Below, in pieces: positions 380-15,080 of a stretch of 15,965 nt of DNA. Numbering within the stretch: the first letter of the stretch is position 1; every line of letters starts with the position of its first letter. This stretch comes from Rhodobacterales bacterium 34-62-10. Its GTDB lineage: Bacteria; Pseudomonadota; Alphaproteobacteria; Rhodobacterales; Rhodobacteraceae. The position numbers were made by a program, and so were the translations under genes. The notes under the pieces are model-generated. The model worked only from the letters and a program-made list of their open reading frames with translations. It was not told the DNA's origin and did not search any database. Location: assembly GCA_002282555.1 (NCBI GenBank), contig NCJR01000011.1, positions 1 to 15,965 of the forward strand, in the 5' to 3' direction.

Positions 380-1450
380 ATGACTTTTTCTACAAAAACA
401 GCCATGCTTGCTGTCCCCGGCGACATCACCACGTTGACCGGAGGGTATATCTACGACCGGCTTTTGTTGGAGGAATTGCGTGTAGCTGGTCGCGAAATGT
501 CATTGATCCAATTGCCTGAGGGTTTTCCATTTCCAACGCCGCAGGCGATGGATCAGGCGCTGGCGCAGCTTCAGGCGCTGAACCATGACACCCCAGTGAT
601 CATTGATGGACTGGCATTTGGTGCTTTGACCACAGCAGGTGTTGCACGAATCGCAGCCCCCATCGTGGCGCTGGTTCATCATCCGCTCGCCTTGGAAAGC
701 GGCTTGCCGACAGATCAGCAACAGCACCTTTGGCAGACCGAGCGGGACAATCTTCGCCATGCCAGGCAGATACTCGTACCAAGCCCGCACACCCGTGCCA
801 TCCTGATCGACAAGTATGATGTCCCCGCCGATCGCATCCACGTGGCGTTGCCCGGAATTAAACAGCGACCCAAGGACGAATCCTCGGCCAAAGATGCGCC
901 AGCCTTGATTCTCTCGGTCGGTATTCTGCATCCGCGCAAAGGTCACGATGTGCTGATCGATGCGCTGGCACGAATCGCCGATCTGGACTGGCGGGCCGAA
1001 ATCGTGGGTAATCCGTGGGAAAAGGGTCACTCCGCGGCGCTGCAAAACAGGATAGGGTCCCACAACCTATCGCGACGTGTGCGCCTTGCCGGGCGCGTCA
1101 CGTCCGAAGAATTGGATAGCCTCTACCGTAGGGCCACGATCTTTGCGCTGGCGACCCGATACGAGGGATATGGCATCGTGTTCAACGAAGCTTTGGTCCA
1201 TGGCCTGCCGATCGTGTCCTGCCGCACCGGGGCTGTGCCCGACACTGTACCTGCAGTTGCGGGTCTTTTGGTAGAACGAGATGATCCCTCGGCCTTTGCC
1301 GACGCGTTGCGCGCCCTGCTGACAGATCATGAACGGCGGTCGGCGATGGCCGTCGCCGCGAAAGAAAAGGGCTGCGCGCTTGCTACATGGGCAGACACCG
1401 CGCGAATCGCAGGTGTGGCGTTGGACGCCGCAGTTGGCGGTGCCGCGTGA
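380..1450 (+). CDS. GT4-family glycosyltransferase
   Basis: This 356-residue protein is a GT-B fold, family 4 retaining glycosyltransferase. The N-terminal acceptor domain contains PGDITTLTGGYIYDR (13-27). The C-terminal donor domain has SVGILHPRKGHD (179-190), whose R186/K187 match the donor-phosphate-binding Arg/Lys of the family, and the E-X7-E motif in YEGYGIVFNE (E262, E270). Such enzymes transfer a sugar from a nucleotide-sugar donor to a lipid, sugar or small-molecule acceptor at the cytoplasmic side. Donor and acceptor cannot be read from the sequence. No clear ribosome site precedes the ATG at 380; the next in-frame ATG is at 404. The stop overlaps the next start (GTGA, 1447-1450), so it is coupled to the inositol-monophosphatase-family gene. 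It is transcribed divergently from pstS. Confidence 0.85.
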   Translation: MTFSTKTAMLAVPGDITTLTGGYIYDRLLLEELRVAGREMSLIQLPEGFPFPTPQAMDQALAQLQALNHDTPVIIDGLAFGALTTAGVARIAAPIVALVHHPLALESGLPTDQQQHLWQTERDNLRHARQILVPSPHTRAILIDKYDVPADRIHVALPGIKQRPKDESSAKDAPALILSVGILHPRKGHDVLIDALARIADLDWRAEIVGNPWEKGHSAALQNRIGSHNLSRRVRLAGRVTSEELDSLYRRATIFALATRYEGYGIVFNEALVHGLPIVSCRTGAVPDTVPAVAGLLVERDDPSAFADALRALLTDHERRSAMAVAAKEKGCALATWADTARIAGVALDAAVGGAA

Positions 1451-2256
1451 CCCCCGAAGCACAAGACGCTGACGATCTGGAACTGGCATTACAAGCGGCA
1501 GATGCGGCAGGTCAGATCCTCATGCACTACTGGCTGGACCGTCAGAACCTGTCCATCCACACCAAGCGGGCAGGGGATTTCCTCTCGCAGGCTGATCTTG
1601 AGGCCGAAGCATGTCTCAAAACGATATTATTGGGTGCCCGTCCCGACGATGGATGGCTGGGCGAGGAAACCGGCGCATCACACTCCGCCCGCCGCCGCTG
1701 GATCGTCGATCCGCTGGACGGAACCACTAATTTCCTGCGCGGTATTCCCCATTGGGCCGTGTCCATCGCGCTTGAAGTGGACGGGCAGCGTCGCCTCGGT
1801 GTGGTGCATGATCCGGTTAAGGCTGAGACGTTCTCGGCCCATCTAGGTCACGGGGCACATCAGAACGGGGCACCCATCCACGTCTCAGGCACCGACGACC
1901 TTTCAGCGGCGCTCTTTGGAACGGGAATACCCTTTGGCGGCATGGCCCATATCGACGATCACGCCGCCGATATCGCCGCGTTGATGCCCCATTGCGCAGG
2001 TGTGCGTCGTATGGGCGCGGCGGCGCTGGATCTGGCCTATGTCGCAGCGGGTCGTTTGGATGGGTTTTGGGAGCGCCGTTTGCAGCAATGGGACATTGCC
2101 GCAGGTCTGGTCATCCTGCACGAATCCGGCGCGCGTACCGCAGCCCTTGATCCGGCAGAGCGGCCCGAAGCGACGGGAACTGTGATGACTGCCACGCCAA
2201 TGCTGTTTGACGCCTTTGCCAAATTGTTGCGCGATCAAACACTCAGACGCGCGTAA
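1447..2256 (+). CDS. Inositol monophosphatase family phosphatase
   Basis: This is a 269-residue Mg-dependent phosphatase of the IMPase/HisN/CysQ superfamily. Metal-binding motifs are intact: GEETG (72-76), WIVDPLDGTTNF (85-96, with D88 and D91) and WDIAAG (215-220, D216). The chosen start is the GTG at 1447, which overlaps the glycosyltransferase stop as GTGA. An in-frame ATG at 1387 would add 20 Arg-rich residues lying entirely inside the upstream gene, so it is rejected. The substrate could be an inositol, sugar or histidinol phosphate, or another small phosphomonoester. Coupling to a glycosyltransferase suggests a phosphorylated product or acceptor. Its 3' end overlaps the convergent FkbM gene by 22 bp, and no terminator is visible. 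Confidence 0.85.
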   Translation: MTPEAQDADDLELALQAADAAGQILMHYWLDRQNLSIHTKRAGDFLSQADLEAEACLKTILLGARPDDGWLGEETGASHSARRRWIVDPLDGTTNFLRGIPHWAVSIALEVDGQRRLGVVHDPVKAETFSAHLGHGAHQNGAPIHVSGTDDLSAALFGTGIPFGGMAHIDDHAADIAALMPHCAGVRRMGAAALDLAYVAAGRLDGFWERRLQQWDIAAGLVILHESGARTAALDPAERPEATGTVMTATPMLFDAFAKLLRDQTLRRA

Positions 2257-2969
2257 AGATCACCCGAAGGGCCATCAGCAGGCAGACTGGTCAACCATGA
2301 CCGCGTTGCGGAAGCATCGCGCCAATCGTTCCAGAGAAAACGACCCGACTCTCCGGTTACAGGATTGAAGCGGTAGTCCCCCAATTCCCCCAGGCGCGCA
2401 ATCACCGAAAGTGTCAGATCGGGCAACCCGGGCAAATACTCGACCGAGACCAACTCGACAGGCTGGCTTAACCCTGAAAGCACCTCAAGCTCGAACCCTT
2501 CCACGTCGATTTTGACATAGCGGGGTATGCCTTCGTCGCGGATCAGACGGTCCAGAGTGGTGACCTGCACCTTCTGAACTCGATCCCAACGGACATGGCC
2601 GAACCCAGGTGCCGCTCCTGCTGTTTCGGCGAATCCGGTTTTCAGGGATGACACAGTGGGATGCAGGGAAGACACCGCCATTTCGGCCACTGTGTCTGCG
2701 CTACCAGCAGCCGCCTCGAGCAGGCGAATGTCGCGCGGCAGCGTCAGGCGCAGAAAGGTGGAAAACGGCACCTGCGGTTCAAGTGCCACAACCCTTGCCC
2801 CTGCTGCGCGCATTGCCCGCGCACGTGTGCCCACATGGGCGCCAACATCGAAGACGAGGTCACCAGGGCGAAGCAATTCGCGGTAGAACCGTCGTAATGG
2901 GACAGTCCTCACCGGATTGTGATAGATCACAAGCGATCGCAACAAACCAAGCCAAGTCGTCAGGGCCAA
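2235..2969 (-). CDS. FkbM family SAM-dependent methyltransferase
   Basis: The 244-residue protein has the SAM-binding motif VFDVGAHVGT (39-48), the acidic strand-2 ligand in ALEP (E64), and the FkbM signature TTLDRLI (137-143) with YVKIDVEGFE (151-160). FkbM enzymes are O-methyltransferases that commonly modify sugars, polyketides or other secondary products. The start is a TTG (complement 2967-2969). An in-frame TGA lies two codons upstream, and an AGGAG sits 7 nt from the TTG. A nearby ATG at 2976 is out of frame and opens only a short reading frame. It is encoded opposite to its neighbours and converges on, and overlaps, the IMPase-family gene. Its position between the glycosyltransferase pair and the ribA run makes methylation of the same product plausible, but this is inferred. 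Confidence 0.85.
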   Translation of the reverse strand: MALTTWLGLLRSLVIYHNPVRTVPLRRFYRELLRPGDLVFDVGAHVGTRARAMRAAGARVVALEPQVPFSTFLRLTLPRDIRLLEAAAGSADTVAEMAVSSLHPTVSSLKTGFAETAGAAPGFGHVRWDRVQKVQVTTLDRLIRDEGIPRYVKIDVEGFELEVLSGLSQPVELVSVEYLPGLPDLTLSVIARLGELGDYRFNPVTGESGRFLWNDWRDASATRSWLTSLPADGPSGDLYARLSV

Positions 2970-3158: not shown

Positions 3159-4298
3159 ATGAATGCTCTACGCCCTGCGCGCGTGACAGACGATCCGGTC
3201 TTGTCAATATTGGCACCGAATGCACTCGAATGTCTCACGCGCCTGAGAGGAGATCTCAGGCTTGGTTTGCCTGTCATCCTGACCGGTGACGGTGCGGCCT
3301 GTTTTGTAGTGCCCGTCGAAACGTTGAGCTCAGAGCGTCACACCGCTTTGCTCTCTGAGGGAGCAATCGGCGAAGTCGTGCTGACCCGCCATCGCGCGGC
3401 GATGCTTGGCCTGCATGGTCTGCCGGATGCGGAAGTCCTGTCCATTGCATTGCCGGCTCAGGCGGGAATTGACTGGTTACTGCGTCTGGCCGATCCCGCA
3501 TTGAGTGGAGTGCAAGCTGCAGCAATGCCGCAACTGCGTATCAGTGCCGGCAAGACGATCCACCGCGCAGCGATCGCTCTTGCGAAATCCGCGCAGCTTC
3601 TTCCCGCAACGCTTGTGGTGCCGGTGGAAGACGCTGTGAATGCCGCCATGCGTCATGGCCTTTCGATCATGGACGCGAATTTGATACTGTCGGAATTGAC
3701 CCGTGCCCGTGTGCAATATCCCGTAGCCTCTGCCCGTCTGCCAATGACAGTACACGAGGCGGGGCAGGTGCATGTCTATCGCCCGGATGATGGTGGAATC
3801 GAGCATTACGCAATCGAGATCGGTAGCCCCGACAGATCCCGTCCGGTTCTGGTCCGTCTCCATTCTGCCTGTTTCACGGGTGATGTGCTTGGCAGTCTGA
3901 AATGTGATTGCGGACCCCAGCTTAACGCGGCAACGGCGGCCATGGCCGCAGCGGAGGGCGGTATTCTTCTCTACCTCAACCAAGAGGGGCGAGGGATCGG
4001 CTTGGCGAACAAGATGCGCGCCTACGCGCTTCAGGATCAAGGGCTGGATACCGTCGAGGCCAATCACCACCTTGGTTTTGATGATGATGAGCGTGATTTC
4101 CGCATCGGATCTGCTTTGTTGGCGCGCCTTGGCATCGCTTCGGTTCGGTTGCTGACGAACAACCCTGCCAAGGTCGCGATGTTGCAGGCACAGGGTATCA
4201 CTGTCTCGGAACGGGTTCCGCTACGAGTGGGACAGACCGCCCAAAACGCGCACTATCTGTCAACAAAGGCTGCCAAATCGGGACATCTGCTGAAATGA
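3159..4298 (+). CDS. ribA: GTP cyclohydrolase II with N-terminal extension
   Basis: The C-terminal half (about 195-379) is a complete GTP cyclohydrolase II. It has Zn ligands C238, C249 and C251 in SACFTGDVLGSLKCDCG, LNQEGRGIGLANK (273-285), the catalytic tyrosine Y289 in RAYALQDQG, DTVEANHHLGF (297-307), R312 in DERDF and a LLTNNPAK tail motif. The enzyme opens GTP to 2,5-diamino-6-ribosylamino-pyrimidinone phosphate plus formate and pyrophosphate, the first step of riboflavin synthesis. Residues 1-190 are an extension absent from the 196-residue E. coli RibA. I see no DHBP-synthase motifs in it, so it is not an obvious RibBA fusion. An in-frame TAA at 3141 rules out a start further upstream; the ribosome site is weak. 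The stop overlaps the next start (ATGA). It may be the housekeeping enzyme, a pathway-specific paralogue, or both. Confidence 0.9.
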   Translation: MNALRPARVTDDPVLSILAPNALECLTRLRGDLRLGLPVILTGDGAACFVVPVETLSSERHTALLSEGAIGEVVLTRHRAAMLGLHGLPDAEVLSIALPAQAGIDWLLRLADPALSGVQAAAMPQLRISAGKTIHRAAIALAKSAQLLPATLVVPVEDAVNAAMRHGLSIMDANLILSELTRARVQYPVASARLPMTVHEAGQVHVYRPDDGGIEHYAIEIGSPDRSRPVLVRLHSACFTGDVLGSLKCDCGPQLNAATAAMAAAEGGILLYLNQEGRGIGLANKMRAYALQDQGLDTVEANHHLGFDDDERDFRIGSALLARLGIASVRLLTNNPAKVAMLQAQGITVSERVPLRVGQTAQNAHYLSTKAAKSGHLLK

Positions 4299-5239
4299 CC
4301 GCCTCAGCGCTTTGGTGCATTGCTCCGGACAGAGCCGAGATCAGACCCGGCGCAATTGGCGAAGGTATCCTGGTCGAGGCGCTTTTCTCGGGCATCAGTC
4401 GTGGTACCGAACGTCTTGTCGCCGCAGGCCGTGTGCCGTCGTCGGAATACGCGCGGATGCGCGGACCTGGTATGGAGGGCGAATTTCCTTTTCCGGTCAA
4501 ATATGGCTATTGCAGCGTGGGGCGCGTGACCGAAGGGGAATTGCAGGGTCGGGCGGTGTTTGCACTTTTCCCGCATCAATCGCAGTATCGCCTGCCGGAA
4601 AGCGCGCTGACACCGTTGCCCGATACCCTTCCACCCGAACGCGCGGTGCTGGCCGCGAACATGGAAACTGCGCTCACCATCCTGTGGGATAGTGGTGCAG
4701 GGACGGGTGACAGGATCGCCGTGATTGGCGCTGGTGTCGTGGGAGCGTTGGTTGCAAGTCTTGCTGCCCGCTTGCCCGGTGCTGATGTGACACTGGTCGA
4801 CATCAACCCTGATCGCGCTGACTTGGCCGATGCGCTGGGCGTTGATTTCACCCACCCCGAGTCTGCACCCAAGGATTGCGACGTCGTTATCCACACCAGC
4901 GCGTCCGAGGCCGGTTTGACCTTGTCCCTGTTATTGGCAGGACAGGAAGCAACAGTGGTCGAGGCCAGTTGGCACGGTGACTCCGCCGTATCAGTGCCAC
5001 TTGGCGGGCCTTTCCATAGTCGCCGACTGCGTCTGGTCAGTTCACAGGTTGGGAATATTCCTGCGGCACGCCTGCCACGCTGGACCTATAGCCGCCGCTT
5101 GGCCAAGGCGCTTGATCTGCTCTGCGATCCCCGCCTTGACGTGTTGATCTCGGGCGAAACCGACTTTGCAGAAATGCCTTCTGCCTATCCGGGCATCCTT
5201 GCCGCACCCGGAACCCTTTGCCACCGCATCCGTTATTGA
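4295..5239 (+). CDS. Zinc-less medium-chain dehydrogenase, BchC-like
   Basis: This 314-residue protein belongs to the medium-chain dehydrogenase/reductase superfamily. It has a GroES-like N-terminal domain followed by a Rossmann domain with VIGAGVVG (143-150) and an acidic residue after strand 2 (VDINPDRA, D169), which favours NAD(H). The usual catalytic-zinc Cys (CGICGTD) is replaced by SGISRGTE (32-39), the GHE histidine position reads GYC (71-73), and the four-Cys structural-zinc loop is absent. It should therefore work without zinc, if it is an oxidoreductase. The N-terminal SGIS.GTER region resembles BchC (bacteriochlorophyllide dehydrogenase), but no photosynthesis genes are nearby. It starts inside the ribA stop (ATGA, 4295-4298) and precedes the PTPS-like gene by 31 nt. 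It probably oxidises or reduces a side chain in this pathway (inferred). Confidence 0.75.
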   Translation: MTASALWCIAPDRAEIRPGAIGEGILVEALFSGISRGTERLVAAGRVPSSEYARMRGPGMEGEFPFPVKYGYCSVGRVTEGELQGRAVFALFPHQSQYRLPESALTPLPDTLPPERAVLAANMETALTILWDSGAGTGDRIAVIGAGVVGALVASLAARLPGADVTLVDINPDRADLADALGVDFTHPESAPKDCDVVIHTSASEAGLTLSLLLAGQEATVVEASWHGDSAVSVPLGGPFHSRRLRLVSSQVGNIPAARLPRWTYSRRLAKALDLLCDPRLDVLISGETDFAEMPSAYPGILAAPGTLCHRIRY

Positions 5240-5270
5240 AACCAGTCCACCTACCGCCAAAGGAGTCTCA

Positions 5271-5666
5271 ATGTACGCCGTAGAAGTCCGTGACCATATC
5301 ATGATCGCCCATTCCTTTCCTTCTCCCCTGTTCGGACCTGCGCAGGGGATGCATGGCGCGACCTTCACTGTCGACGCGGCCTTTTTCGCAGATGACATCG
5401 ACGCGCATGGGTTGGTGGTCGATATTGGCCTGGCGATCGAAGCTTTGGCCGCCGTGCTGGAGCCGCTGCGATACAAGAACCTTGATGAGGTCGCGCAGTT
5501 CAAAGGCATCTTCACAACGACAGAATTCCTGTCGGGACACATCTTCCGCGAGATGGCTGCAAAGGTCCGTGCCGGTGCTCTGAACGATGGCGGCCGGGTC
5601 AAGAAACTGCGCATCACCCTGCACGAAAGCCACATGGCCCGCGGCTGGTTCGAGGCGGAGATCTGA
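5271..5666 (+). CDS. Divergent 6-pyruvoyl-tetrahydropterin synthase/QueD family protein
   Basis: The start ATG at 5271 has a strong AAAGGAG 5 nt upstream, giving 131 residues, the usual length of a PTPS/QueD subunit. A longer in-frame reading from 5166 lies inside the dehydrogenase gene and is rejected. The T-fold landmarks align: IAH (12-14), MHGATF (27-32), VVDIG (49-53), LRYKNLD (66-72), TTTE (82-85) and a C-terminal HES (118-120), whose E119 matches the pterin-anchoring Glu. The catalytic residues do not. The Cys four residues before the His motif is A24, HGH is HGA (one zinc His lost), and the Asp-His dyad of LDHKNLD is R67-Y68. It therefore likely binds a pterin-like or pyrimidine ligand but should not perform canonical PTPS or QueD chemistry. 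The fold call is good; the reaction is unknown. Confidence 0.75.
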   Translation: MYAVEVRDHIMIAHSFPSPLFGPAQGMHGATFTVDAAFFADDIDAHGLVVDIGLAIEALAAVLEPLRYKNLDEVAQFKGIFTTTEFLSGHIFREMAAKVRAGALNDGGRVKKLRITLHESHMARGWFEAEI

Positions 5667-5669
5667 GGC

Positions 5670-6443
5670 ATGGGTTTCTCCGCCGATTGGCTGGCCCTGC
5701 GTGAACCCGCTGACCACGCGGCACGGGATCGCGCCTTGGTCGTGGCGGCGGCGCATGCCGCTGGCCCGCATCCAGTGATGGTTGATCTGGGCTGCGGCAC
5801 CGGGTCTACGATCCGGGCCTTTGACGGTCATTTGGCGGGGCCTGCACGCTGGCGGTTGGTGGACAATGATCCTTTACTCTTGGCTCACGCGGCGCGTGCT
5901 GTTGCCGGAGAAGTAACGACACACCGGATCGACTTGCGCGATCTTGATGCACTTCCGCTGGATGGCGCAACTCTTGTGACCGCGTCCGCGCTGCTGGACC
6001 TGTGCTCGCAATCGTGGGTCGAGAGTTTGGCCGAAAGGCTGGCACGTCAAAGGCTGCCATTCTATGCGGCGCTGAATTATGATGGCGTTATGCAATGGAC
6101 GCCTGCAGATCCAAACGACGCGGTGATCACACAGGCGTTCAATCGGCATCAACGTCAGGACAAGGGCTTTGGCCCGGCTCTCGGTCCTGATGCAGCCAAG
6201 GTCATCGCGGATGTGTTTGCCGCCGTCGGATACCGTATCCTGCAGGCAGACAGCCCGTGGCATTTGACGGGTGAACATGCCGCCCTGCAAGGCGAACTTG
6301 TGCAAGGCATTGCACAGGCTGCGTCCGAGGCAGGAGCCAGCGATGCCGCATCATGGGGTGCTTGCCGCAGGGATGGCGCCGGCACGACGGTCTGTCACAT
6401 CGGCCATCGCGATATTCTTGCGCTGCCAGCGGGCGCAATATGA
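5670..6443 (+). CDS. Class I SAM-dependent methyltransferase
   Basis: The protein has 257 residues. The SAM-binding motif I is VDLGCGTGS (38-46), followed by RLVDNDPLL with D66 as the likely ribose-binding acidic residue, and a motif-III-like hydrophobic strand (VTASALLDL). The start ATG is 3 nt after the stop of the PTPS-like gene, so the two are translationally linked. The substrate cannot be read from the sequence. In context, N- or O-methylation of the pyrimidine/pterin-type intermediate made by its neighbours is a reasonable inference. The C-terminal third (about 190-257) is not a part I recognise. Confidence 0.75.
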   Translation: MGFSADWLALREPADHAARDRALVVAAAHAAGPHPVMVDLGCGTGSTIRAFDGHLAGPARWRLVDNDPLLLAHAARAVAGEVTTHRIDLRDLDALPLDGATLVTASALLDLCSQSWVESLAERLARQRLPFYAALNYDGVMQWTPADPNDAVITQAFNRHQRQDKGFGPALGPDAAKVIADVFAAVGYRILQADSPWHLTGEHAALQGELVQGIAQAASEAGASDAASWGACRRDGAGTTVCHIGHRDILALPAGAI

Positions 6444-6465
6444 CAGGGAATCAAGGAGGCCAGCG

Positions 6466-7314
6466 ATGCACAATGTGACCGTGACCCCCGATGTCTGGGA
6501 GCGCATTCTGGCAGTTCGCTCCGGACGGGCGTGCCCTTGTTGTGGCGACTGGTCCGAGGGCGAACGGGCGGCACTCGACCTTTATGCGCCTTTGGCCCGG
6601 CGCGATCTTGGACCTGTGACCGTGGCCCAGATTGGCCAGTCCCTGGACGGGCGTGTCGCTACGGTCTCGGGCGATGCGCGTGATGTATCCGGCCCTGATG
6701 GTCTGGCGCACCTGCACCGCATGCGCGCGCTTGTGGATGGCGTGGTGATCGGTGTGGGCACGGCCCTGCACGACGATCCACGTCTGACCGTACGCCTGTG
6801 CAGCGGCTCTAATCCGGCACGAATCGTGATTGACCCTAACGGACGGCTTCCCGACGATGCACCCGTGCTGCGCGCGGACGGGACACGCCGCTTTGTCATT
6901 CAGGCGGTGGATCGCCCCCGTCCGGACGGGGTCGAGGTGATCCGTTTGCCGCTGATCGATGGCACTTTCCGCCCCCGTGCAATCCTGAATGCCCTGCATG
7001 ATGCAGGTCTTTCCACAATTCTCATCGAGGGTGGCGGCATCACGATCGCTGGTTTTCTTGAGTCCGGGTTGTTGACACGCATGCAGATTGCCGTAGCCCC
7101 CTTGTTGATCGGCGCGGGTCCTGCTGCATTGACCACAGCCGTGCCGCGCATGAAATTGGCCGATTGCATTCGTCCCGACATGCGGGTTTTCGCGCTGGGT
7201 TCCGATATTCTGTTCGATTGCGGTCTGACACCTCAGGCCAATGCAGCATTGCTGCCACTGCATGATACGGCAAAGACCGGGGGCGCACGCCGTGCGGCGT
7301 CGTTCCTGTCCTGA
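6466..7314 (+). CDS. Stand-alone RibD C-terminal-type reductase
   Basis: The start ATG at 6466 has a strong AAGGAGG 6 nt upstream; an upstream in-frame ATG at 6271 lies inside the methyltransferase gene and is rejected. The 282-residue protein has one RibD_C/dihydrofolate-reductase-fold domain (about 50-265): QIGQSLDGRVAT (55-66), HLHRMRALVDGVVIGVGT (82-99), DDPRLTVR (103-110) and ILIEGGG, then the APLLIGAGP loop. In RibD this domain uses NADPH to reduce the ribosyl chain of the pyrimidine phosphate made by RibA and the deaminase. The zinc cytidine-deaminase-type domain (HAE/PCxxxGxxxPC) is missing. Instead there is a 48-residue N-terminal segment with CPCC (23-26) that I do not recognise. 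In fungi and archaea such reductases act before deamination; in the RibA context that is plausible here. Confidence 0.82.
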   Translation: MHNVTVTPDVWERILAVRSGRACPCCGDWSEGERAALDLYAPLARRDLGPVTVAQIGQSLDGRVATVSGDARDVSGPDGLAHLHRMRALVDGVVIGVGTALHDDPRLTVRLCSGSNPARIVIDPNGRLPDDAPVLRADGTRRFVIQAVDRPRPDGVEVIRLPLIDGTFRPRAILNALHDAGLSTILIEGGGITIAGFLESGLLTRMQIAVAPLLIGAGPAALTTAVPRMKLADCIRPDMRVFALGSDILFDCGLTPQANAALLPLHDTAKTGGARRAASFLS

Positions 7315-7321
7315 GGGTCGG

Positions 7322-8113
7322 ATGACCCCTCAATCACAATCCGCGCTGACCTGCGTCAGTTGGAATATCCATCGCGGCAAGGGCAATGATGGCCGTGTGG
7401 ACCCTGTCCGCACTGCCGATGTTCTGCTGAGCGAAGTGGCCCAGCCAAGGACCGATATACTGGTGCTGCAAGAAGCGGATGAGGAATGCCGTCCGCACCG
7501 TGGTATTCTCGATATCCAAAGGATCGAGGCCGGGACAGGGCTGCGCCATGCCCATGCCGATCAGCATTTGCGGTGGGGCGCGGAAAGCCACGGTTTTCTG
7601 GGCGTTATCCTGTTCATGGCTATCGATATCGAGGTCGAAGATGTGGTCCTGCTGGATCTTCCTGGCCATTGTCATCGTGGGGCCGTGGTCATTGACGCCT
7701 CGCGTCATGGGCGGCCTTTTCGGGTAATCGGCACGCATTTGTCACTGGGGCAGATCGCGCGGATCGCCCAGATGCGGGTCATCGGGCAGCATCTGCGCCG
7801 CCGTTCAGCGCGCCAGACCCTCTTGGTCGGCGATCTGAACGAATGGCGGCCTTGGGGTGGACTGGCGCTGTCGCCGCGGCTTTTGGGGCAGACCCTCAAG
7901 GGTCCGGCGCTTGCCAGCTTTCCAGTCAAACGACCTTTTCTCCCGCTGGATCGCATTCTGACGACCTTACCAGGACGTGTTGATGCAATGCGTGCACTTG
8001 ATGGACCCGGAATCCGTATCGCGTCGGACCACCGTCCTGTTGCGGCACAGGTCAGCCTGTGTGACGATTCTGACGCAATGCAGCGCGCAGCCCGTCCATC
8101 CATCCGACCATAG
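7322..8113 (+). CDS. Endonuclease/exonuclease/phosphatase family hydrolase
   Basis: The 263-residue protein carries every signature of the metal-dependent EEP fold: VSWNIHRG (N15), VLQEAD (E51), GTHLSLG (H139), GDLNEW (D171, N173), LDRIL (D210) and the terminal SDHRPV (D236, H237). The active site is therefore intact. Family members cleave phosphodiester or phosphomonoester bonds in DNA, phosphoinositides, sphingomyelin or small molecules, and the sequence alone does not choose. There is no signal peptide, so it is likely cytoplasmic. The start at 7322 is 8 nt after the RibD-type stop; a longer in-frame reading from 7241 overlaps that gene and is rejected. As last gene of the run it could remove a phosphate from the pathway product, or act with the lipid module beyond 9178. 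Confidence 0.8.
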   Translation: MTPQSQSALTCVSWNIHRGKGNDGRVDPVRTADVLLSEVAQPRTDILVLQEADEECRPHRGILDIQRIEAGTGLRHAHADQHLRWGAESHGFLGVILFMAIDIEVEDVVLLDLPGHCHRGAVVIDASRHGRPFRVIGTHLSLGQIARIAQMRVIGQHLRRRSARQTLLVGDLNEWRPWGGLALSPRLLGQTLKGPALASFPVKRPFLPLDRILTTLPGRVDAMRALDGPGIRIASDHRPVAAQVSLCDDSDAMQRAARPSIRP

Positions 8114-8444: not shown

Positions 8445-8990
8445 TCAATCGCGCGCAGGCCACATCCGCTGAAAGATGCCGTCCCGTTTGATCAGCGCGT
8501 GTTGCAACGCAGCACCCACGTGCAGGGCGACAAGAACAGCCAAGGCCCATGCCCCAGCATAATGCAGCGATTTTGCAGCATTCGCCAAAGCTTCTGATTT
8601 TGGCAACAAGGTGCCGATCCCCATAGCGTCAAGCATCTCGATCGGAAAACCACCTGCTCTTACGCGGACATAGCCTGAAACGGGCATGAGAACGATCAAC
8701 CCGTACAAGAGGCCATGTGTCCAGTTTGACACGCGCCTTTGCCACTGAGGTAGGCTGAGTGGCAGCGCCGGGGGAGGGTTGCGCCAGCGGTAAAGAAGTC
8801 GCGTGAAAACCAGCAAGGCCACGATCACGCCGGTATTTTTGTGAAACAGGAATAAAGCGTTCTGAAAAGGTCGTGAAAGACCCTGCTGAACCATCAGGAA
8901 CCCTACTGGCAGCATCGCCAAGACAAGCAAGGCCACCGACCAGTGCAACCAGCGTGCCGGCGTTTTGTAACGGTCCTGTTTCGCTTGCAT
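8445..8990 (-). CDS. Cytochrome b561 (CybB-type diheme membrane protein)
   Basis: The protein has 181 residues and four transmembrane helices: about 15-35, 47-67, 93-110 and 143-165. It has the histidine pattern of bacterial b561: H16 in RWLHW, H50 in FHK, and H143 and H157 in the last helix (LHYAGAWAL..ALHVGA), expected to ligate two b hemes. The family passes electrons from ubiquinol or superoxide; the physiological partner here is unknown. The start ATG at 8990 is preceded by GGGAGGAG. The gene stands alone on the minus strand between two plus-strand runs, so it is probably independently transcribed and not part of either pathway. Confidence 0.88.
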   Translation of the reverse strand: MQAKQDRYKTPARWLHWSVALLVLAMLPVGFLMVQQGLSRPFQNALFLFHKNTGVIVALLVFTRLLYRWRNPPPALPLSLPQWQRRVSNWTHGLLYGLIVLMPVSGYVRVRAGGFPIEMLDAMGIGTLLPKSEALANAAKSLHYAGAWALAVLVALHVGAALQHALIKRDGIFQRMWPARD

Positions 8991-9042: not shown

Positions 9043-9177
9043 GCTCATCACGACAGATCGGTTCACAGCTTCGTGCCCCTCTCTGGCGAGAAGCTGAAAA
9101 CCGCCTTATTGCAGGCATTGATGGGTATGTCGCTGCCACATCGCTTGACGGAACAAGCGTCAGACTATCTATGCCGG

Positions 9178-9933
9178 ATGACCCAATTGCCACCAGACAC
9201 CTTTCCTTCCGTACAGTTGCCCTCGCGTGCCAGTGCCGCGCGTACAGGGCTTGTGGTTGCGACTGCGGCAACACTGCTTGCCATGGCACTGGTGCATGTG
9301 ACCGCGTTTACAGCTAGCAAGGCGGCACTGGCGTCAATCGGGCTTCTCCTACTGGGTGTGACGCTATTGTGGGAGCGACTTCCACGCCATTATCCGCACC
9401 ACCGCTTTGGTGCTTGCAACACCGTTACGCTACTGCGTGCGGGACTAGGGGCGACGCTGCTGACACCGTTGCTGCTACAGGACAGCGATACCACTGATGC
9501 GCAGGGCTGGGCGATCGTTCTGGTTGCATCACTTGCCTTGTCAATGGACGGGTTGGACGGTTGGCTGGCGCGGCGTGACAGGCTGACGTCAAGCTTTGGC
9601 GCCCGCTTTGATCTGGAGGTTGACGCGGCCCTTGCCCTTATCCTGTCACTTCTTGTTCTGGATGCTGGTACAGTGGGTCCCGTCGTTTTGGTTTTGGGCC
9701 TGATGCGCTATGCCTTTGTCGCAGCGTCATGGGGTTTGCCATGGCTCGCAGCACCTCTGCCAGACAAATCCGGGCGCAAGGTTGTCTGCGTTGTCCAGAT
9801 CGCCGCGCTGATCGTGTTGCAAGCACCGATCATCACAGGGTCAATGGCCTTGGCGATTGGAGCAAGCGCTGCGGCTGCCCTGATATGGTCATTCGGGCGC
9901 GATATCCTCTGGCTATGGAGACATCGGCCGTGA
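9178..9933 (+). CDS. CDP-alcohol phosphatidyltransferase family membrane protein
   Basis: The full signature of the family is present: D124, then DG..AR........G...D...D at D127, G128, A131, R132, G141, D145 and D149, numbered from the ATG at 9178. These aspartates bind the metals and the CDP-diacylglycerol (or CDP-alcohol) donor. About six hydrophobic segments flank the motif. The reaction is transfer of a phosphatidyl group to an alcohol with release of CMP. The alcohol (glycerol phosphate, inositol phosphate, serine or other) cannot be assigned. The start is uncertain: in-frame GTG 9073 and ATGs 9121 and 9127 would lengthen it by up to 35 residues, and none has a clear ribosome site. I chose 9178 because it leaves about 20 residues before the first membrane helix. 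The stop overlaps the next gene (GTGA, 9930-9933). Confidence 0.82.
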   Translation: MTQLPPDTFPSVQLPSRASAARTGLVVATAATLLAMALVHVTAFTASKAALASIGLLLLGVTLLWERLPRHYPHHRFGACNTVTLLRAGLGATLLTPLLLQDSDTTDAQGWAIVLVASLALSMDGLDGWLARRDRLTSSFGARFDLEVDAALALILSLLVLDAGTVGPVVLVLGLMRYAFVAASWGLPWLAAPLPDKSGRKVVCVVQIAALIVLQAPIITGSMALAIGASAAAALIWSFGRDILWLWRHRP

Positions 9934-11588
9934 ACCGCACTGCCTTGCGTGCGGCAGAGTTGGGTCTGGCCGCTTTGCTTTTGCATGTGGTTCTGATCCA
10001 GCCCAATCACCCCGCAGCGATGACATGGGCAGCCCTGTCGGTGCTGTCTCTGGAGTGGATCATATTGCTGTTGGCTCTGCCGGTGATCGGCGACGGGCGC
10101 ATCGGTCGCGCATTCCGTGGCGCTCTTGTCCTTGCCCTGACATTCATTGCCGTGCTCAAGACCGCAGACTATGCGATGTTTACCTCGTTTGCGCGGGGCT
10201 TCAATCCGGTCGGGGACATGCCGCTCATGGCTGCTGCTTTCCGGCTGGGGTGGGGCACTATTGGCTTGCTGCCGGTGATTGCGGTCGTGATCGGCGGGTG
10301 CCTCCTTGTTTTCGCGCTGGCTGCGGGTCTTTGGTGGGCGATGGGTGTTTGGGCAAAGCTTTCACTGCCACGTTCCGCACGCCCTTTGGCCGGAGCGGGC
10401 GCGGCAGTGGTTCTTGGGTTTGCCATAGCCGATATAGGCTCTGTTATGGCCCGTTGGCATCTTCCCATCAATCCTCCCGGCACGGCCTTTACAGCGCGAT
10501 TGGGCGCAGAGCGGGTGGTGCTGATCCGCAAGACCTTGGCCGATTTGCAGGCATTCAACGCATTGGCCCGTGCTGATCCCTTTGCTGATCGTGCGGACCT
10601 GTTGGATCGTATTGATCGCGATGTGTTGGTGATATTCGTCGAAAGCTACGGGCGCACAAGTATTGATACACCTTTCTATGCTGAACATCATCGCCCTTTG
10701 CTTGATGCGGCGACCCGTCAGCTTGAGCAGGAGGGGTTGGCCATGCGGTCAGCCTACCTGGACTCTCCGACGCGCGGTGGCCAAAGCTGGCTGGCGCACG
10801 CCACCTTCGCCAATGGCATGCGCGTCGACGGACAGGCTCGCTATCAGGCTGCATTAGCCAGTGGACGCGAGACATTGTTTCATATCGCCGCCCGTTCCGG
10901 CTTCAGAACTGCCGCCGTAATGCCTGCCATCACATTGGACTGGCCCGAAGCCGCGTTGATGGGATTCGATACTGTGTTGCCCGCGGCCGACCTTGGTTAC
11001 CGGGGCTTGCCCTTCAACTGGGTCACGATGCCGGATCAATTCACGCTGGCGGCACTGGACCGTGAACTGCGGCAATCAGTCTCTGATCCACCGCTATTCG
11101 CGCAAGTGGCACTGATTTCCTCGCATGCGCCATGGGTGCCGGTCCCCCGCCTTGTCCCGTGGGAAGATTTGGGCGACGGGACCATCTTCAACGAGATGGC
11201 CACCTCCGGCGACCGCCCGGAAGATGTATGGCGAGATCATGACCGTGTCCGCGATCAATACCGCATGTCGATCACCTACGCGTTGGACACGGTGGTGGAG
11301 TACGCACTCCGCCATGCTGAAGATCCGCCATTGCTGATCGTGCTGGGCGATCATCAGGCCGCAGGGTTCATCGCGCTGGATGAACGCAGTGATGTGCCTG
11401 TTCATCTGATCGGACCGCCTGCGCTTTTGGAGCATGTTGCGGATTGGGGATGGACGCGTGGCATGATCCCTGCTGAAGATGCTCCGATCCTGCCGATGGA
11501 GGCTATGCGCGATCTTCTGCTGCGCGCGTACAGTTCGGCTCCACCCCAAGGTGCTTTCATCTCTCCTCTCAGTCTGAATGGTGGCTAG
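9930..11588 (+). CDS. Polytopic sulfatase/alkaline-phosphatase-superfamily protein, LtaS/OpgB-like
   Basis: The first roughly 175 of 552 residues hold about five transmembrane helices (near 8-24, 36-54, 62-80, 110-138, 153-172). The rest is a periplasmic hydrolase/transferase domain. Metal and nucleophile positions can be seen: DVLVIFVESYG (E238), PTRGGQSW (S286 or T281 as nucleophile candidate), SSHAPW (H399) and VLGDHQ (D474, H475). This matches the layout of lipoteichoic-acid synthase, OpgB and EptA-type enzymes, which move phosphoglycerol or phosphoethanolamine from a phospholipid onto an acceptor. The GTG at 9930 is chosen because it overlaps the previous stop as GTGA and has GGAG 9 nt upstream; an ATG at 9915 lacks a ribosome site. 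Sulfatase activity itself seems unlikely: there is no CxPxR formylglycine motif. Confidence 0.78.
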   Translation: MNRTALRAAELGLAALLLHVVLIQPNHPAAMTWAALSVLSLEWIILLLALPVIGDGRIGRAFRGALVLALTFIAVLKTADYAMFTSFARGFNPVGDMPLMAAAFRLGWGTIGLLPVIAVVIGGCLLVFALAAGLWWAMGVWAKLSLPRSARPLAGAGAAVVLGFAIADIGSVMARWHLPINPPGTAFTARLGAERVVLIRKTLADLQAFNALARADPFADRADLLDRIDRDVLVIFVESYGRTSIDTPFYAEHHRPLLDAATRQLEQEGLAMRSAYLDSPTRGGQSWLAHATFANGMRVDGQARYQAALASGRETLFHIAARSGFRTAAVMPAITLDWPEAALMGFDTVLPAADLGYRGLPFNWVTMPDQFTLAALDRELRQSVSDPPLFAQVALISSHAPWVPVPRLVPWEDLGDGTIFNEMATSGDRPEDVWRDHDRVRDQYRMSITYALDTVVEYALRHAEDPPLLIVLGDHQAAGFIALDERSDVPVHLIGPPALLEHVADWGWTRGMIPAEDAPILPMEAMRDLLLRAYSSAPPQGAFISPLSLNGG

Positions 11589-12543
11589 AACAATGCCATC
11601 TCGCACCGCAATAATCAAAATGATCAGGTTCGCCGTGACTCTGGCCCTGCTTGCGCTGCTTTGGCAGGCGGTTGATGGGCCGGCCGCACTTGATCTACTG
11701 CTCGCATCAGACGCCCGCTGGCTTGTGGCTGCTGTTGTCGTGCTTACAGGACAAACGCTGCTATCGGCCTTGCGCTGGCGGTTGACGGCTGGGGCCTTGG
11801 GGCATGCGATTCCGGTCGGACGGGCTCTGCGTGAATACTACCTGTCGCAGATCGTGAACCAGTCGCTGCCGGGCGGCGTTCTGGGTGATGCCAGCCGCGC
11901 AGTCCGCGCCCGACACGAAGCCGGGTTGAAGCGCGCAGGACAAGCCGTTGTGTTCGAGAGGTTGGCGGGTCAATTGGTGCTGTTTGCGGTGACAGCGATT
12001 GCCGTGTTGATGGTCTGGGCTACGCCGGGTGGCATGGTATTACCGGAATGGGTGCTCAGGCTGGTGGCATTTTCTGGTCTGACCATAGCGGTGATTGCGG
12101 GGTTGATCTGGGGCTTCAGTCACGGTGCGGGCATTGCCAGCCGCCATGTTAGAGACTGGATAAATGCTTTCTCTTTATCTGTCTTCGCCCCTGCCGTGGT
12201 GCCGCGTCAGATCCTGCTGAGCCTTGGCACAACGGCGCTCAACCTGCTGGCCTTTGCACTCTGTGCCCGCGCCACTGGCACGACGATGCCACTGACCGCC
12301 GTGATGATCGTGGTGCCGCTGATCCTGTTCACGATGCTGATCCCGATCTCGGTCAGCGGTTGGGGGCTGCGCGAAGGTGCTGCCGCCGCCCTCTTTCCGG
12401 TCTTCGGCGCAACAGCAACCGAAGGATTTGCCGCGAGCCTTGCCTTCGGGCTGATGTTTTTGCTCAGCACCATGCCGGGTGTCGTGGTCCTTCTGATCAG
12501 CCCCAAACCCGTTCCTGTCGAAACAGGCTCTATCTCAGGGTAA
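11578..12543 (+). CDS. Flippase-like integral membrane protein (LPG synthetase TM-region / UPF0104 family)
   Basis: The 321-residue protein has about seven to eight hydrophobic segments throughout. It carries the family's two best markers: QSLPGGVLGDASRA in the first half, followed by AVVFERLAGQ, and PISVSGWGLREGA in the second half. This is the membrane domain found in MprF and in stand-alone AglD/YbhN-like proteins, thought to move or help move lipids across the membrane. It begins inside the end of the sulfatase-like gene (11-nt overlap). Alternative starts GTG 11581 and ATG 11593 are in frame, and ATG 11593 avoids the overlap. With its two upstream partners it forms a coupled synthesis, transfer and flipping set. 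Its 3' end overlaps the convergent DUF1285 gene by 9 bp. Confidence 0.8.
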   Translation: MVARTMPSRTAIIKMIRFAVTLALLALLWQAVDGPAALDLLLASDARWLVAAVVVLTGQTLLSALRWRLTAGALGHAIPVGRALREYYLSQIVNQSLPGGVLGDASRAVRARHEAGLKRAGQAVVFERLAGQLVLFAVTAIAVLMVWATPGGMVLPEWVLRLVAFSGLTIAVIAGLIWGFSHGAGIASRHVRDWINAFSLSVFAPAVVPRQILLSLGTTALNLLAFALCARATGTTMPLTAVMIVVPLILFTMLIPISVSGWGLREGAAAALFPVFGATATEGFAASLAFGLMFLLSTMPGVVVLLISPKPVPVETGSISG

Positions 12544-13134
12544 TTCGGCCGCCGGAATGATCGCAAAGAAGGTGGCGTCCGACCAGACGCCGAACCACGT
12601 TACCCCATCAACCGCATGTTCGGTCCCAAGCTCGACCAGCCGATAGAAGCTTTTGCGGTCAATCAGTGCTTCCAGACCCGCGCGCACCATCACATAGGGG
12701 GATGGCTCACCCGTCTCGGGGTCACGGACAAAGCGCAGCGGCGTTTCTGACCCTGCCGTCACACTGTCGCCGACATTCGTGTGAAAGGTCAGGCGCTGAT
12801 CCGGCCCTTCGCCGCTCACCTCGAAATCCACAGCCACGAAAGGCGCGTCATCGACGGTGATTCCGACCTTTTCAACCGGCGTTACCAAAAAATAATTGTC
12901 GCCGTCCTTGCGCAGAATCGTCGAGAACAGCCGCACCAGTCCCGGCCGCCCGATGGGTGTGCCTTCATAGAACCAGGTCCCGTCCCGCGCGATCCGCATG
13001 TCCAGATCACCGCAAAAGGGCGGATTCCAAAGATGCACCGGTGGCAGTCCCCGTCCCTTTGCTGCTTTTATCGAGGCAGCGATGCCCTCTGCTGACGGGG
13101 TCACGATCATTTGTCCGCTCATTGCTTTTGCCAT
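12535..13134 (-). CDS. DUF1285 domain protein
   Basis: The 199-residue protein matches DUF1285 by its characteristic core: PPVHLWNPPFCGDLDMRI, then GTWFYEGTPIGRP, LVRLFSTILRKDG and YFLVTPVEKVGI. Family members are small soluble proteins found widely in proteobacteria. No enzymatic role can be given. The start is uncertain: ATG 13134 is chosen, ATG 13122 (MSGQ) is equally credible, and a GTG at 13161 is also in frame. None has an ideal ribosome site. It is divergent from moxR with overlapping promoter sequences, a common arrangement that may link their expression. Confidence 0.78.
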   Translation of the reverse strand: MAKAMSGQMIVTPSAEGIAASIKAAKGRGLPPVHLWNPPFCGDLDMRIARDGTWFYEGTPIGRPGLVRLFSTILRKDGDNYFLVTPVEKVGITVDDAPFVAVDFEVSGEGPDQRLTFHTNVGDSVTAGSETPLRFVRDPETGEPSPYVMVRAGLEALIDRKSFYRLVELGTEHAVDGVTWFGVWSDATFFAIIPAAELP

Positions 13135-13178
13135 TTCCCTTTCGCGCGATACTATCATCACATCGACCTAGGGTTCAA
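13128..13178. promoter_or_regulatory. Overlapping divergent promoters for moxR and the DUF1285 gene
   Basis: Plus strand: TTGCCA (13128-13133), 16 nt, TACTAT (13150-13155), reading to moxR. Minus strand: TTGAAC (13178-13173), 18 nt, TAGTAT (13154-13149), reading to the DUF1285 gene. The two -10 elements share the same ATACTAT stretch (13149-13155), so RNA polymerase could occupy only one at a time. Both are inferred from consensus similarity. Confidence 0.4.
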
Positions 13179-13191
13179 AGGAGGGATTGCC

Positions 13192-14199
13192 ATGTCCGAT
13201 CACGCCGATCTGGTTGCCGGTATCGAGGCGCTGGAGGACAAGTTGGCGCAAGCCCGTTCGTCGATCACGCGCCGTTTCATCGGACAGGAGAAGGTCGTGG
13301 ACCTGACCTTGTCGGCTCTTCTGTGCGGCGGTCATGGTCTGCTGATCGGTCTGCCCGGGCTGGGCAAAACCCGTCTGGTGGAAACCCTGTCGACCGTGAT
13401 GGGCCTGCATGGTAACCGTGTGCAGTTCACACCTGACCTGATGCCCGCCGACATCCTTGGTTCCGAAGTTCTGGAAACCGACGCGGATGGCCGCCGTGCC
13501 TTTCGGTTCGTCGAAGGTCCGATCTTCTGCCAGCTTCTGATGGCGGACGAGATCAACCGCGCCAGTCCCCGGACGCAATCCGCGCTGTTGCAGGCGATGC
13601 AGGAACGCCGCGTCACAGTAGCGGGGCAGGATCGTCCACTGGGCAAGCCGTTCCATGTTCTGGCGACCCAGAACCCGATCGAGCAGGAAGGCACCTATCC
13701 ACTTCCCGAGGCGCAGCTGGATCGTTTTCTGGTCCAGATCGACGTACAATATCCCGACCGCGCGACGGAACGGGACATCCTGATTGCCACCACAGGCGTT
13801 GCTGAGGAGGAGGCGCATCAGGTCTTTTCAGACGGCGAGCTTTTGGCGGCGCAGACACTGCTCCGGCGGATGCCGGTGGGCGATGCCGTGGTCGAGGCGA
13901 TCCTTGATCTGGTCCGCGCTTTCCGGCCCGATGATCCCACTGCGGATGACCGGGTCCGCCAGACCGTGGCGTGGGGCCCCGGACCCCGTGCCGCCCAAGC
14001 CATGATGCTGACCGTGCGCGCGCGCGCTTTGCTGCAAGGGCGGCTTGCCCCCTCGGTCGAGGATGTAGTGGCGATGGCGCGGCCCGTGTTGACACATAGG
14101 ATGGCGCTGAACTTCGCCGCCCGTGCGCGAGGCGAGACACTGACGGGCCTCATCACTGACACTGCCGCCCGCATCACGCGGATCGAGGCGGCGGCGTGA
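13192..14199 (+). CDS. moxR: MoxR-family AAA+ ATPase
   Basis: This is a 335-residue AAA+ ATPase of the MoxR/RavA class: Walker A GLPGLGKT (53-60), Walker B LLMADE (115-120) followed by INRASPRTQ, sensor-1 VLATQNP (157-162, N161) and LPEAQLDRF. MoxR proteins act as chaperone-like ATPases on partner proteins with VWA domains. The ATG at 13192 has AAAGGAGGG 6 nt upstream; a longer in-frame reading from 13111 is rejected. The stop overlaps the DUF58 start (GTGA, 14196-14199). The moxR-DUF58-BatA-type order is a recurrent operon, thought to mature or insert envelope or redox proteins. Confidence 0.92.
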   Translation: MSDHADLVAGIEALEDKLAQARSSITRRFIGQEKVVDLTLSALLCGGHGLLIGLPGLGKTRLVETLSTVMGLHGNRVQFTPDLMPADILGSEVLETDADGRRAFRFVEGPIFCQLLMADEINRASPRTQSALLQAMQERRVTVAGQDRPLGKPFHVLATQNPIEQEGTYPLPEAQLDRFLVQIDVQYPDRATERDILIATTGVAEEEAHQVFSDGELLAAQTLLRRMPVGDAVVEAILDLVRAFRPDDPTADDRVRQTVAWGPGPRAAQAMMLTVRARALLQGRLAPSVEDVVAMARPVLTHRMALNFAARARGETLTGLITDTAARITRIEAAA

Positions 14200-15080
14200 C
14201 ACAAACCCAACCCCTGACCCTGCGCGCAAGAGCCGAGGCCGAGGCCGCCCGTTTTCCCCCGCTTCTGGCGCGGGCGGAACATTTGGCGGGCACCGTCCTT
14301 CTGGGCGAACATGGCCGCCGCCGCGCTGGGCAAGGGGATGATTTCTGGCAATACCGCCCGGTGCAGCAGGGTGATCCGGCCCGCATGATCGACTGGCGCC
14401 GCTCGGCGCGTGGTGACACCCAGTTCGTGCGCGAACGGGAATGGCAAATCGCGCAAAGCGTGATGCTTTGGGTTGATCAGGCCGCCTCCATGCGTTTCAC
14501 ATCAGAGCCTAATCTGCCCGAAAAGGCTGATCGCGCGCGCTTGCTGGCGCTGTCGGTCGCGGTTTTGCTGGTGCGTGGTGGCGAACGCGTGGGTCTGACG
14601 GGAACGACCCTGCCACCACGCCGCGGCAATGCGCAGCTTTTGCGACTGGCCGAGATGTTCTCGCTGGATGAGGCGTCCGATTACGGTATCCCCGAGGCAC
14701 GGGCCATGATCCCGCAGGCGCGCGCGATGTTTGTCTCTGATTTCCTCTCGGACATTGCCCCCGTGCAGGCCGCTTTAACCAAAGCCGCTGATCGCGGTGT
14801 GCGTGGTATCCTGCTGCAGGTGCTGGACCCCACCGAAGAAGCGTTTCCCTTTCAAGGCCGCACGATTTTCCAAAGCATGGGCGGCACCATTGCCCATGAA
14901 ACCCTGAAGGCAGGCGATCTGCGCGGGCGCTATCTGGAACGTCTGGCAGAACGCAAGGCGGCGCTTGCCGATCTGTGTGGCGCGACGGGCTGGCAATACC
15001 AGTGCCATCACACCGATGCCTCGGCACAATCCGCACTGCTTTGGGTCTGGCGTGCGCTAGAGCGGGGAGCGGTGGTATGA
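14196..15080 (+). CDS. DUF58 domain protein
   Basis: The 294-residue protein has the DUF58 core at about 45-85, with DDFWQYRPVQQGDPARMIDW and RRSARGDTQFVRERE, leading into a VWA-like domain. The MIDAS-type motif, usually DxSxSM, reads DQAASM (94-99): the first serine is replaced, so metal binding is probably weakened. There is no membrane segment, so it is likely cytoplasmic, working with MoxR. The start is the GTG in the GTGA overlap with moxR, and the stop overlaps the next gene (ATGA, 15077-15080), so all three are translationally coupled. Confidence 0.88.
   Translation: MTQTQPLTLRARAEAEAARFPPLLARAEHLAGTVLLGEHGRRRAGQGDDFWQYRPVQQGDPARMIDWRRSARGDTQFVREREWQIAQSVMLWVDQAASMRFTSEPNLPEKADRARLLALSVAVLLVRGGERVGLTGTTLPPRRGNAQLLRLAEMFSLDEASDYGIPEARAMIPQARAMFVSDFLSDIAPVQAALTKAADRGVRGILLQVLDPTEEAFPFQGRTIFQSMGGTIAHETLKAGDLRGRYLERLAERKAALADLCGATGWQYQCHHTDASAQSALLWVWRALERGAVV

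Follow-up and report, generated by a model that had tools for sequence, protein, structure and literature searches.

The 15,965-nucleotide contig NCJR01000011.1 of Rhodobacterales bacterium 34-62-10 (the window, by which we mean this whole stretch at its full length) carries a run of five genes at positions 3159–7314 whose families are those of vitamin B2 and pterin chemistry, which raises the question of what compound such a set of genes makes. All five open reading frames (ORFs) lie in one direction with overlaps or short gaps, as the initial annotation had described (the first two share a 4-base overlap), and Pfam and NCBIfam profile matches agree with its family assignments: GTP cyclohydrolase II (RibA), an MDR dehydrogenase, a PTPS homologue, an S-adenosylmethionine (SAM) methyltransferase (MT) and a RibD_C reductase. 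Together with neighbouring genes, the set probably makes a small, sugar-tagged compound derived from GTP, and we put at about one half the probability that a dedicated pathway makes a GTP-derived compound of the pyrimidine/pterin type and both methylates and glycosylates it. Some relatives carry an uptake transporter in place of the synthesis genes.

The initial annotation took the run for a GTP-derived pathway that was dedicated, separate from both riboflavin and queuosine synthesis, and undescribed. The first part is favoured, at the strength just given, by the linkage of the genes, the co-occurrence of PTPS and MT (35/35 vs. 0/359 genomes), the extra copies of RibD_C and RibA and the residues lost from the PTPS protein. 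The word undescribed holds in so far as we found no function; the neighbourhood of this PTPS type had already been printed in part (PMC5445326), and the structure of a relative (PDB 3d7j) has been solved.

A conserved gene neighbourhood

Searching a species collection with a 28-sequence alignment of the window's PTPS type (PTPS-IV, described below) identified at least 582 encoding stretches among at least 595 candidates, of which the best 80, some of them short, are referred to here as the 80 loci. Weak PTPS matches were left out (1/36 genomes in the family survey below, and 62/89 in another PTPS search). MDR, PTPS, a GT4 glycosyltransferase (GT4) and MT were found all together in 64/80 loci; the nearest family gene upstream of PTPS was the MDR in 95/107 loci, and the nearest downstream was GT4 in 73/107 and MT in 29/107. 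The core was also present in 20 further stretches (GT4 in 20, MDR in 20, RibD_C in 17, MT in 13 and fused in 6 more, RibA in 7), accompanied by CDP-alcohol transferase (11), LPG_TM (10), MdoH (10), cytochrome b561 (5), LtaS/EptA-like (4) and FkbM (3) genes. As the neighbourhood is seen again in 80 fetched loci, whereas none of the 14 family profiles had a match in 20 arbitrary 20-kb control stretches from cluster-bearing genomes, the linkage exceeds chance, and it is conserved among relatives.

Co-occurrence follows the same pattern. Across 394 genomes of the family, strong PTPS-IV and strong MT matches fell in the identical 35 genomes, with MT in 0/359 of the others (12/47 genomes with weak MT matches were left out, the scores showing a gap between E 1e-17 and 1.6e-7; one match is partial, in G289, and one is in pieces, in G152). 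In G113, the two genes lie on separate contigs.

GT4 had been overlooked as a core member, as had the envelope genes and the alternative importer discussed below. We count it in the core because it is the commonest nearest downstream neighbour of PTPS and forms a single open frame with MT in 6 loci (L170, L172–L176). The limits of 3159–7314 were too narrow, since GT4 and further genes belong to a unit of 13 genes, from GT4 (380) to LPG_TM (12543), and all 13 families occur in 6/6 loci of the genus. RibA, in only 36/80 loci, is therefore not a defining member of the cluster. The predicted model of MT (pLDDT 96.4) matched generic class I methyltransferases in a fold search, without a substrate clue.

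The 80 loci are mainly labelled alpha-, beta- and gammaproteobacteria, and the same core is found in another class of Pseudomonadota. PTPS-IV is also carried on 20 plasmid or secondary-replicon records (H1–H20), one of them typed as conjugative, which suggests horizontal spread. Plasmids of Thiodictyon, Microbacterium, Neorhizobium, Methylosinus and Streptomyces fungicidicus bear the MDR–PTPS–GT4–MT core (in the last accompanied by a CDP-alcohol transferase and ribA), a Palleronia plasmid record shows a window-like order, and one Streptomyces anthocyanicus record has PTPS alone. No PTPS relatives were found among viral contigs. The cluster also appears in loci from metagenome-assembled genomes labelled Aquiluna and Bordetella parapertussis (L095, L154); these bin labels may be wrong, as the L095 gene order resembles that of Rhodobacterales loci. 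Two further neighbours, named by eye, recur among the 80 loci (L081–L160): a group of ATP-binding cassette (ABC) ATPases in 19 and a large membrane protein, YfhO-like, in 8.

Plasmid carriage, and an ABC ATPase group that could include exporters, would suit a core producing a diffusible secondary metabolite, of either the toxoflavin or the 7-deazapurine type, with the envelope genes incidental; compounds of these types are commonly methylated and glycosylated. However, a near-constant core in at least 582 stretches (mainly proteobacterial among the best 80), and on actinobacterial plasmids besides, is a wide distribution for an antibiotic, and we consider this explanation improbable.

The PTPS-IV protein and its partner enzymes

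In the window, the PTPS homologue carries the motif FGPAQGMHGA. Its FGPAQ signature was invariant in 28/28 aligned sequences, and FGPAQ..HGA is present in 105/107 loci. The passages of a 2017 study that concern this subfamily of COG0720 give FGPAQ as the signature of PTPS-IV and describe a cluster of 561 sequences (cluster-node 62, AGeNNT) with PF00925, named there GTP cyclohydrolase I, and PF01872 as neighbours (PMC5445326). Among solved structures, SCO6650 of Streptomyces coelicolor (PDB 3d7j) comes closest (E 5.5e-36, with true PTPS at 0.014); it scores 196.6 bits with the family profile and has the same FGPAQ and HGA residues. When aligned to the PTPS structure 1b66, the window protein and its relatives lack the Cys, one zinc His (of HGH) and the Asp-His pair, residues that we take to be those of catalysis and zinc binding, and the earlier label of divergent PTPS homologue fits. 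SCO6650 is reportedly without zinc and without PTPS activity.

Public annotation points elsewhere, as 6/7 plasmid records viewed name the PTPS gene 6-carboxytetrahydropterin synthase, which together with the PTPS fold would fit a canonical pterin or queuosine pathway (through QueD or PTPS-II) with extra genes. Yet the QueD/PTPS-I motif CxxxHGH is absent and the QueD model reaches 24.3 bits against a cut-off of 89.25, whilst the 1b66 alignment likewise lacks the biopterin-type (PTPS-II) features, namely CxxxxxHGH, the PTPS-II motif according to part of PMC5041015, and the Asp-His pair. The window's own genome has a separate C-x3-HGH copy elsewhere (G000:C212). Given the missing residues, the nearest structure and this separate copy, the window protein is neither QueD nor a biopterin PTPS, the residues contradict the queuosine-enzyme annotation of the plasmid records, and a canonical pathway is highly implausible. 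No queC, queE or queF was matched in the 16 window proteins scanned, nor was ribB, ribE or ribH, in line with the initial annotation. PTPS-IV, a T-fold protein, may have retained the binding of a pterin-like ring.

An unpublished F420 role for PTPS-IV is mentioned in a passage of PMC5041015; family scans revealed no deazaflavin synthase genes among the window proteins, the recurring unlabelled neighbours of the loci being judged by eye only. The literature searched, for the terms used, yielded no published function for PTPS-IV and does not name SCO6650, and the pertinent passages of a 2026 pterin review make no mention of the PTPS-IV neighbourhood (PMC13259868).

The RibA protein has an N-terminal extension of ~190 residues and, in alignment with Escherichia coli GTP cyclohydrolase II (2bz0), retains three Cys and the Tyr of RAYALQDQ, presumably the metal (zinc) triad and the catalytic Tyr, so that the catalytic residues are intact as claimed. 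For the MDR, the nearest NCBIfam model is BchC, at 47 bits vs. a cut-off of 291 bits, and Pfam ADH_zinc_N is also below its cut-off; since no Cys is invariant among 15 MDR sequences, the label zinc-less fits. The Pfam scan also agreed that the RibD_C reductase is without a deaminase domain. Cluster-type RibD_C proteins (27 rows, including Microbacterium and Thiodictyon) form one clade with support of 100/99, separate from 21 canonical RibD, in a tree of 19 cluster rows chosen from 75 and 29/30 fetched loci, whose PDB rows include several that are long or of unusual composition. The RibD_C profile scored archaeal reductases at 147 and 139 bits and bacterial RibD at no more than 116, a PDB search with it favoured 6p8c and 2azn, and TIGR01508 reached only 96 of 186 bits; membership of the archaeal reductases (DARP reductase type) is unsupported by the tree, which does not join the two.

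Copies of both genes, a count that the initial annotation held to be informative, were compared in 22 selected genomes. A second RibD_C (>100 bits) was found in 12/12 PTPS-positive vs. 0/10 PTPS-negative genomes, and a second GTP cyclohydrolase II (>160 bits) in 8/12 vs. 0/10. In G131, the extra RibD_C sits outside the cluster, though it belongs to the cluster-type clade. Intact RibA residues and a RibD-type reductase could also mean a spare riboflavin branch that merely boosts flavin synthesis, but the window proteins include no deaminase, ribB, ribE or ribH, all 12 PTPS-positive genomes tested retain another full-score RibD, the cluster RibD_C is a clade of its own, and we know of no riboflavin role for MDR, PTPS-IV, MT or GT4. 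Such a branch is very unlikely. In Streptomyces fungicidicus, a creatininase-family gene adjoins ribA (L166:15645–16436); this family includes formamide hydrolases from the archaeal route.

Envelope genes and an importer in relatives

By eye, the CDP-alcohol transferase of the window has an intact DxxDGxxARx8GxxxDxxxD, which we take to be the CDP-alcohol phosphatidyltransferase motif. The model of the 9909–11588 protein (pLDDT 84.6) best matched LtaP, MCR-1 and LtaS in the PDB (E about 1e-8 to 1e-6, TM 0.34–0.45 on the query). Its gene, referred to here as the LtaS/EptA-fold gene, is present in 18/35 PTPS-positive and 35/359 PTPS-negative genomes of the family (2/55 genomes with weak matches left out), and an obligate envelope module was rejected because of these occurrences without PTPS. 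A MdoH-like gene is found in 34/80 loci, only 2 of which also have the LtaS/EptA-fold gene; that the two are alternatives was likewise rejected, as 4/6 genus loci (353–364 bits) and loci of the other class have both. The window's own genome (72% complete) gave no match for a MdoH/OpgH-like gene, in a search without a positive control.

From the 35 PTPS-negative genomes with a LtaS/EptA-fold gene we fetched 14 loci (L280–L293). All 14 combine this gene with a CDP-alcohol transferase, PTPS, MT and RibD_C are present in 0/14, and GT4 in 10/14. An NMT1/THI5-type binding protein gene (in L281 at 11546–12652) adjoins the LPG_TM or LtaS/EptA-like gene in 11/14, precedes GT4 wherever such loci have GT4, and is followed by an ABC ATPase and a permease (3/3 each by Pfam in the sampled loci). 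The binding protein has its nearest solved relatives in 4nmy and 3ix1, the latter a protein that binds thiamin pyrimidine. At E <1e-20, the binding-protein gene had no match in the window, in the 107 PTPS loci and a further 12, or in the 20 controls. In 80 genomes, importer orthologues (E <1e-140) were present in 3/35 PTPS-positive genomes, 24/35 PTPS-negative genomes with the LtaS/EptA-like gene and 0/10 with neither (2/29 weak matches left out); among the 53 family genomes bearing the LtaS/EptA-fold gene, this amounts to 3/18 PTPS-positive vs. 24/35 PTPS-negative (Fisher p 0.00045, which, like all co-occurrence p values here, is too small because kin genomes are not independent). Two of the three PTPS-positive exceptions (G093, G333) have the importer and the LtaS/EptA-like gene within ~5 kb, off the PTPS contig. 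A GT4 tree was built from 29/107 loci, the window, the additional 12 PTPS loci and the 10 loci of the importer type that have GT4. In it, importer-linked GT4s are nested inside the biosynthetic group at two points, that is, two changes of partner, in either direction. Both this nesting and the presence of the importer where the operon is missing are new findings of this analysis.

The main rival to a dedicated GTP-derived pathway is that GT4, FkbM, CDP-alcohol transferase, LtaS/EptA-fold protein and LPG_TM make a glycolipid or glycan without a GTP-derived part, the RibA–RibD_C run being a mere neighbour and the importer bringing in a nutrient. The occurrence of the LtaS/EptA-fold gene in PTPS-less genomes, of GT4 in most of their fetched loci and of MdoH-like genes beside many clusters would agree with this. 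It accords less well with GT4 being present in 70/80 PTPS loci and fused to the pathway MT in six, and with an importer in 11/14 run-less loci but 0 of 107 + 12 PTPS loci, and we regard it as unlikely, although to be taken seriously.

Coordinates and profile matches of all 13 genes are collected in Table 1. The EEP gene, despite its low overall count, scored >300 bits in 6/6 genus loci and 8/14 PTPS-negative loci. Downstream of the cluster, positions 12535–15080 of the window carry genes for DUF1285, a MoxR ATPase and DUF58, with homologues in 0/80 loci.

Table 1 Genes of the 13-gene unit, with positions in the window and occurrence among the best 80 PTPS-IV loci
Gene product	Place in unit	Position	Strand	Profile match	Loci
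GT4 glycosyltransferase	core	380..1450	+	Pfam Glycos_transf_1 E 1.1e-30	70/80
Inositol-monophosphatase-family phosphatase (IMPase)	accessory	1423..2256	+	PF00459 E 4.2e-58	17/80
FkbM-type methyltransferase	accessory	2235..2969	-	TIGR01444 72 bits, over cut-off	33/80
RibA, GTP cyclohydrolase II		3159..4298	+	GTP_cyclohydro2 E 3.5e-58; TIGR00505 213.8 bits, over cut-off	36/80
Zinc-less MDR dehydrogenase, BchC-like	core	4295..5239	+		76/80
PTPS-IV (FGPAQ) homologue	core	5271 (ATG)..5666	+	PF01242 E 1e-18	80/80
Class I SAM methyltransferase (MT)	core	5670..6443	+	Methyltransf_25 E 7.5e-07	75/80
RibD_C reductase without deaminase	pathway-specific clade	6466..7314	+	PF01872 E 1.2e-32	53/80
EEP-family phosphatase/nuclease	accessory	7325..8113	+	PF03372	4/80
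Cytochrome b561	accessory	8445..8990	-	PF01292 E 2.7e-30	36/80
CDP-alcohol phosphatidyltransferase	envelope module	9073..9933	+	PF01066 E 3.1e-11	30/80
Membrane-bound alkaline-phosphatase-superfamily protein (LtaS/EptA-like fold)	envelope module	9909..11588 (start codon uncertain)	+	PF00884	26/80
LPG_synthase_TM (LPG_TM) membrane protein, flippase-like by family	envelope module	11578..12543	+	PF03706 E 1e-32	24/80

A proposed pathway and its relation to known systems

From the observed gene content, linkage, co-occurrence, fusion, residue losses and importer in operon-less loci, we infer the reactions, their order, the product and its location, and the imported substance, as follows. RibA would open GTP to a diamino-ribosylamino-pyrimidinone phosphate, and the deaminase-less RibD_C would reduce its ribosyl chain with no deamination, two steps proposed because of the enzyme families. 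PTPS-IV and the BchC-like MDR would then remodel the RibD_C product, which MT would methylate and GT4 glycosylate, as MT, GT4 and the GT4–MT fusion suggest. In this lineage, the CDP-alcohol transferase, LPG_TM and LtaS/EptA-fold protein probably attach or present the compound at the envelope, which is the least certain step. Relatives without synthesis would import the compound or a precursor through the NMT1/THI5-type ABC importer, keeping GT4 and the envelope genes. A bolder version, in which a methylated, glycosylated GTP-derived ribityl-pterin-like ring is a new class of envelope-borne molecule that relatives find worth importing, itself or as a precursor, with an ABC transporter of its own, seems to us rather doubtful; such a product might be anchored to lipid through the CDP-alcohol transferase or transferred to a periplasmic glycan by the LtaS/EptA-fold enzyme, LPG_TM would flip it, and it would perhaps be in redox coupling with cytochrome b561.

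Besides the kinship of the genomes, several points weigh against the dedicated pathway. No metabolite is known for the cluster, and the tree does not group its RibD_C with the archaeal reductases that act on an undeaminated substrate. Within the fetched stretches, 44/80 loci are without RibA and 27/80 without RibD_C, so another start of the pathway is possible, bearing in mind that some stretches are short and that a RibD_C of the clade may sit outside the cluster (G131). The envelope module is separable, 17/35 PTPS-positive genomes being without the LtaS/EptA-fold gene that 35/359 PTPS-negative genomes have, and 16/80 loci are without any of the four genes MdoH, CDP-alcohol transferase, LtaS/EptA-fold gene and LPG_TM. 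Finally, 11/35 PTPS-negative genomes with the LtaS/EptA-fold gene are without the importer, and NMT1 proteins bind several types of ligand.

If the proposal is true, GTP-derived metabolism has one more branch, and the envelope possibly a new constituent. The orphan SCO6650, whose structure is solved, gains a pathway that can be tested and whose partner genes are named, and the product can be approached by two independent handles, namely gene deletion in producers and the ligand of the importer binding protein in relatives.

Among known systems, the window's protein belongs with PTPS-IV, sharing both the FGPAQ signature and the PF00925/PF01872 neighbours, and the passages on this subfamily name no link to a pathway, methyltransferase, glycosyltransferase, envelope or importer (PMC5445326). 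Its nearest solved relative, SCO6650, was deposited as uncharacterized. BchC, a bacteriochlorophyllide dehydrogenase, is the best NCBIfam match of the MDR, yet at a score far under the cut-off; BchC oxidises the alcohol of a side chain. Riboflavin biosynthesis shares the first enzyme and the reductase domain with the cluster, whereas the window is without the deaminase and the later enzymes. Toxoflavin biosynthesis uses a GTP cyclohydrolase II, a RibD-type enzyme and a methyltransferase, shared enzyme types on which the analogy drawn by the initial annotation rests, and, compared by enzyme types, the cluster adds to these PTPS-IV, the MDR, GT4 and the envelope genes.

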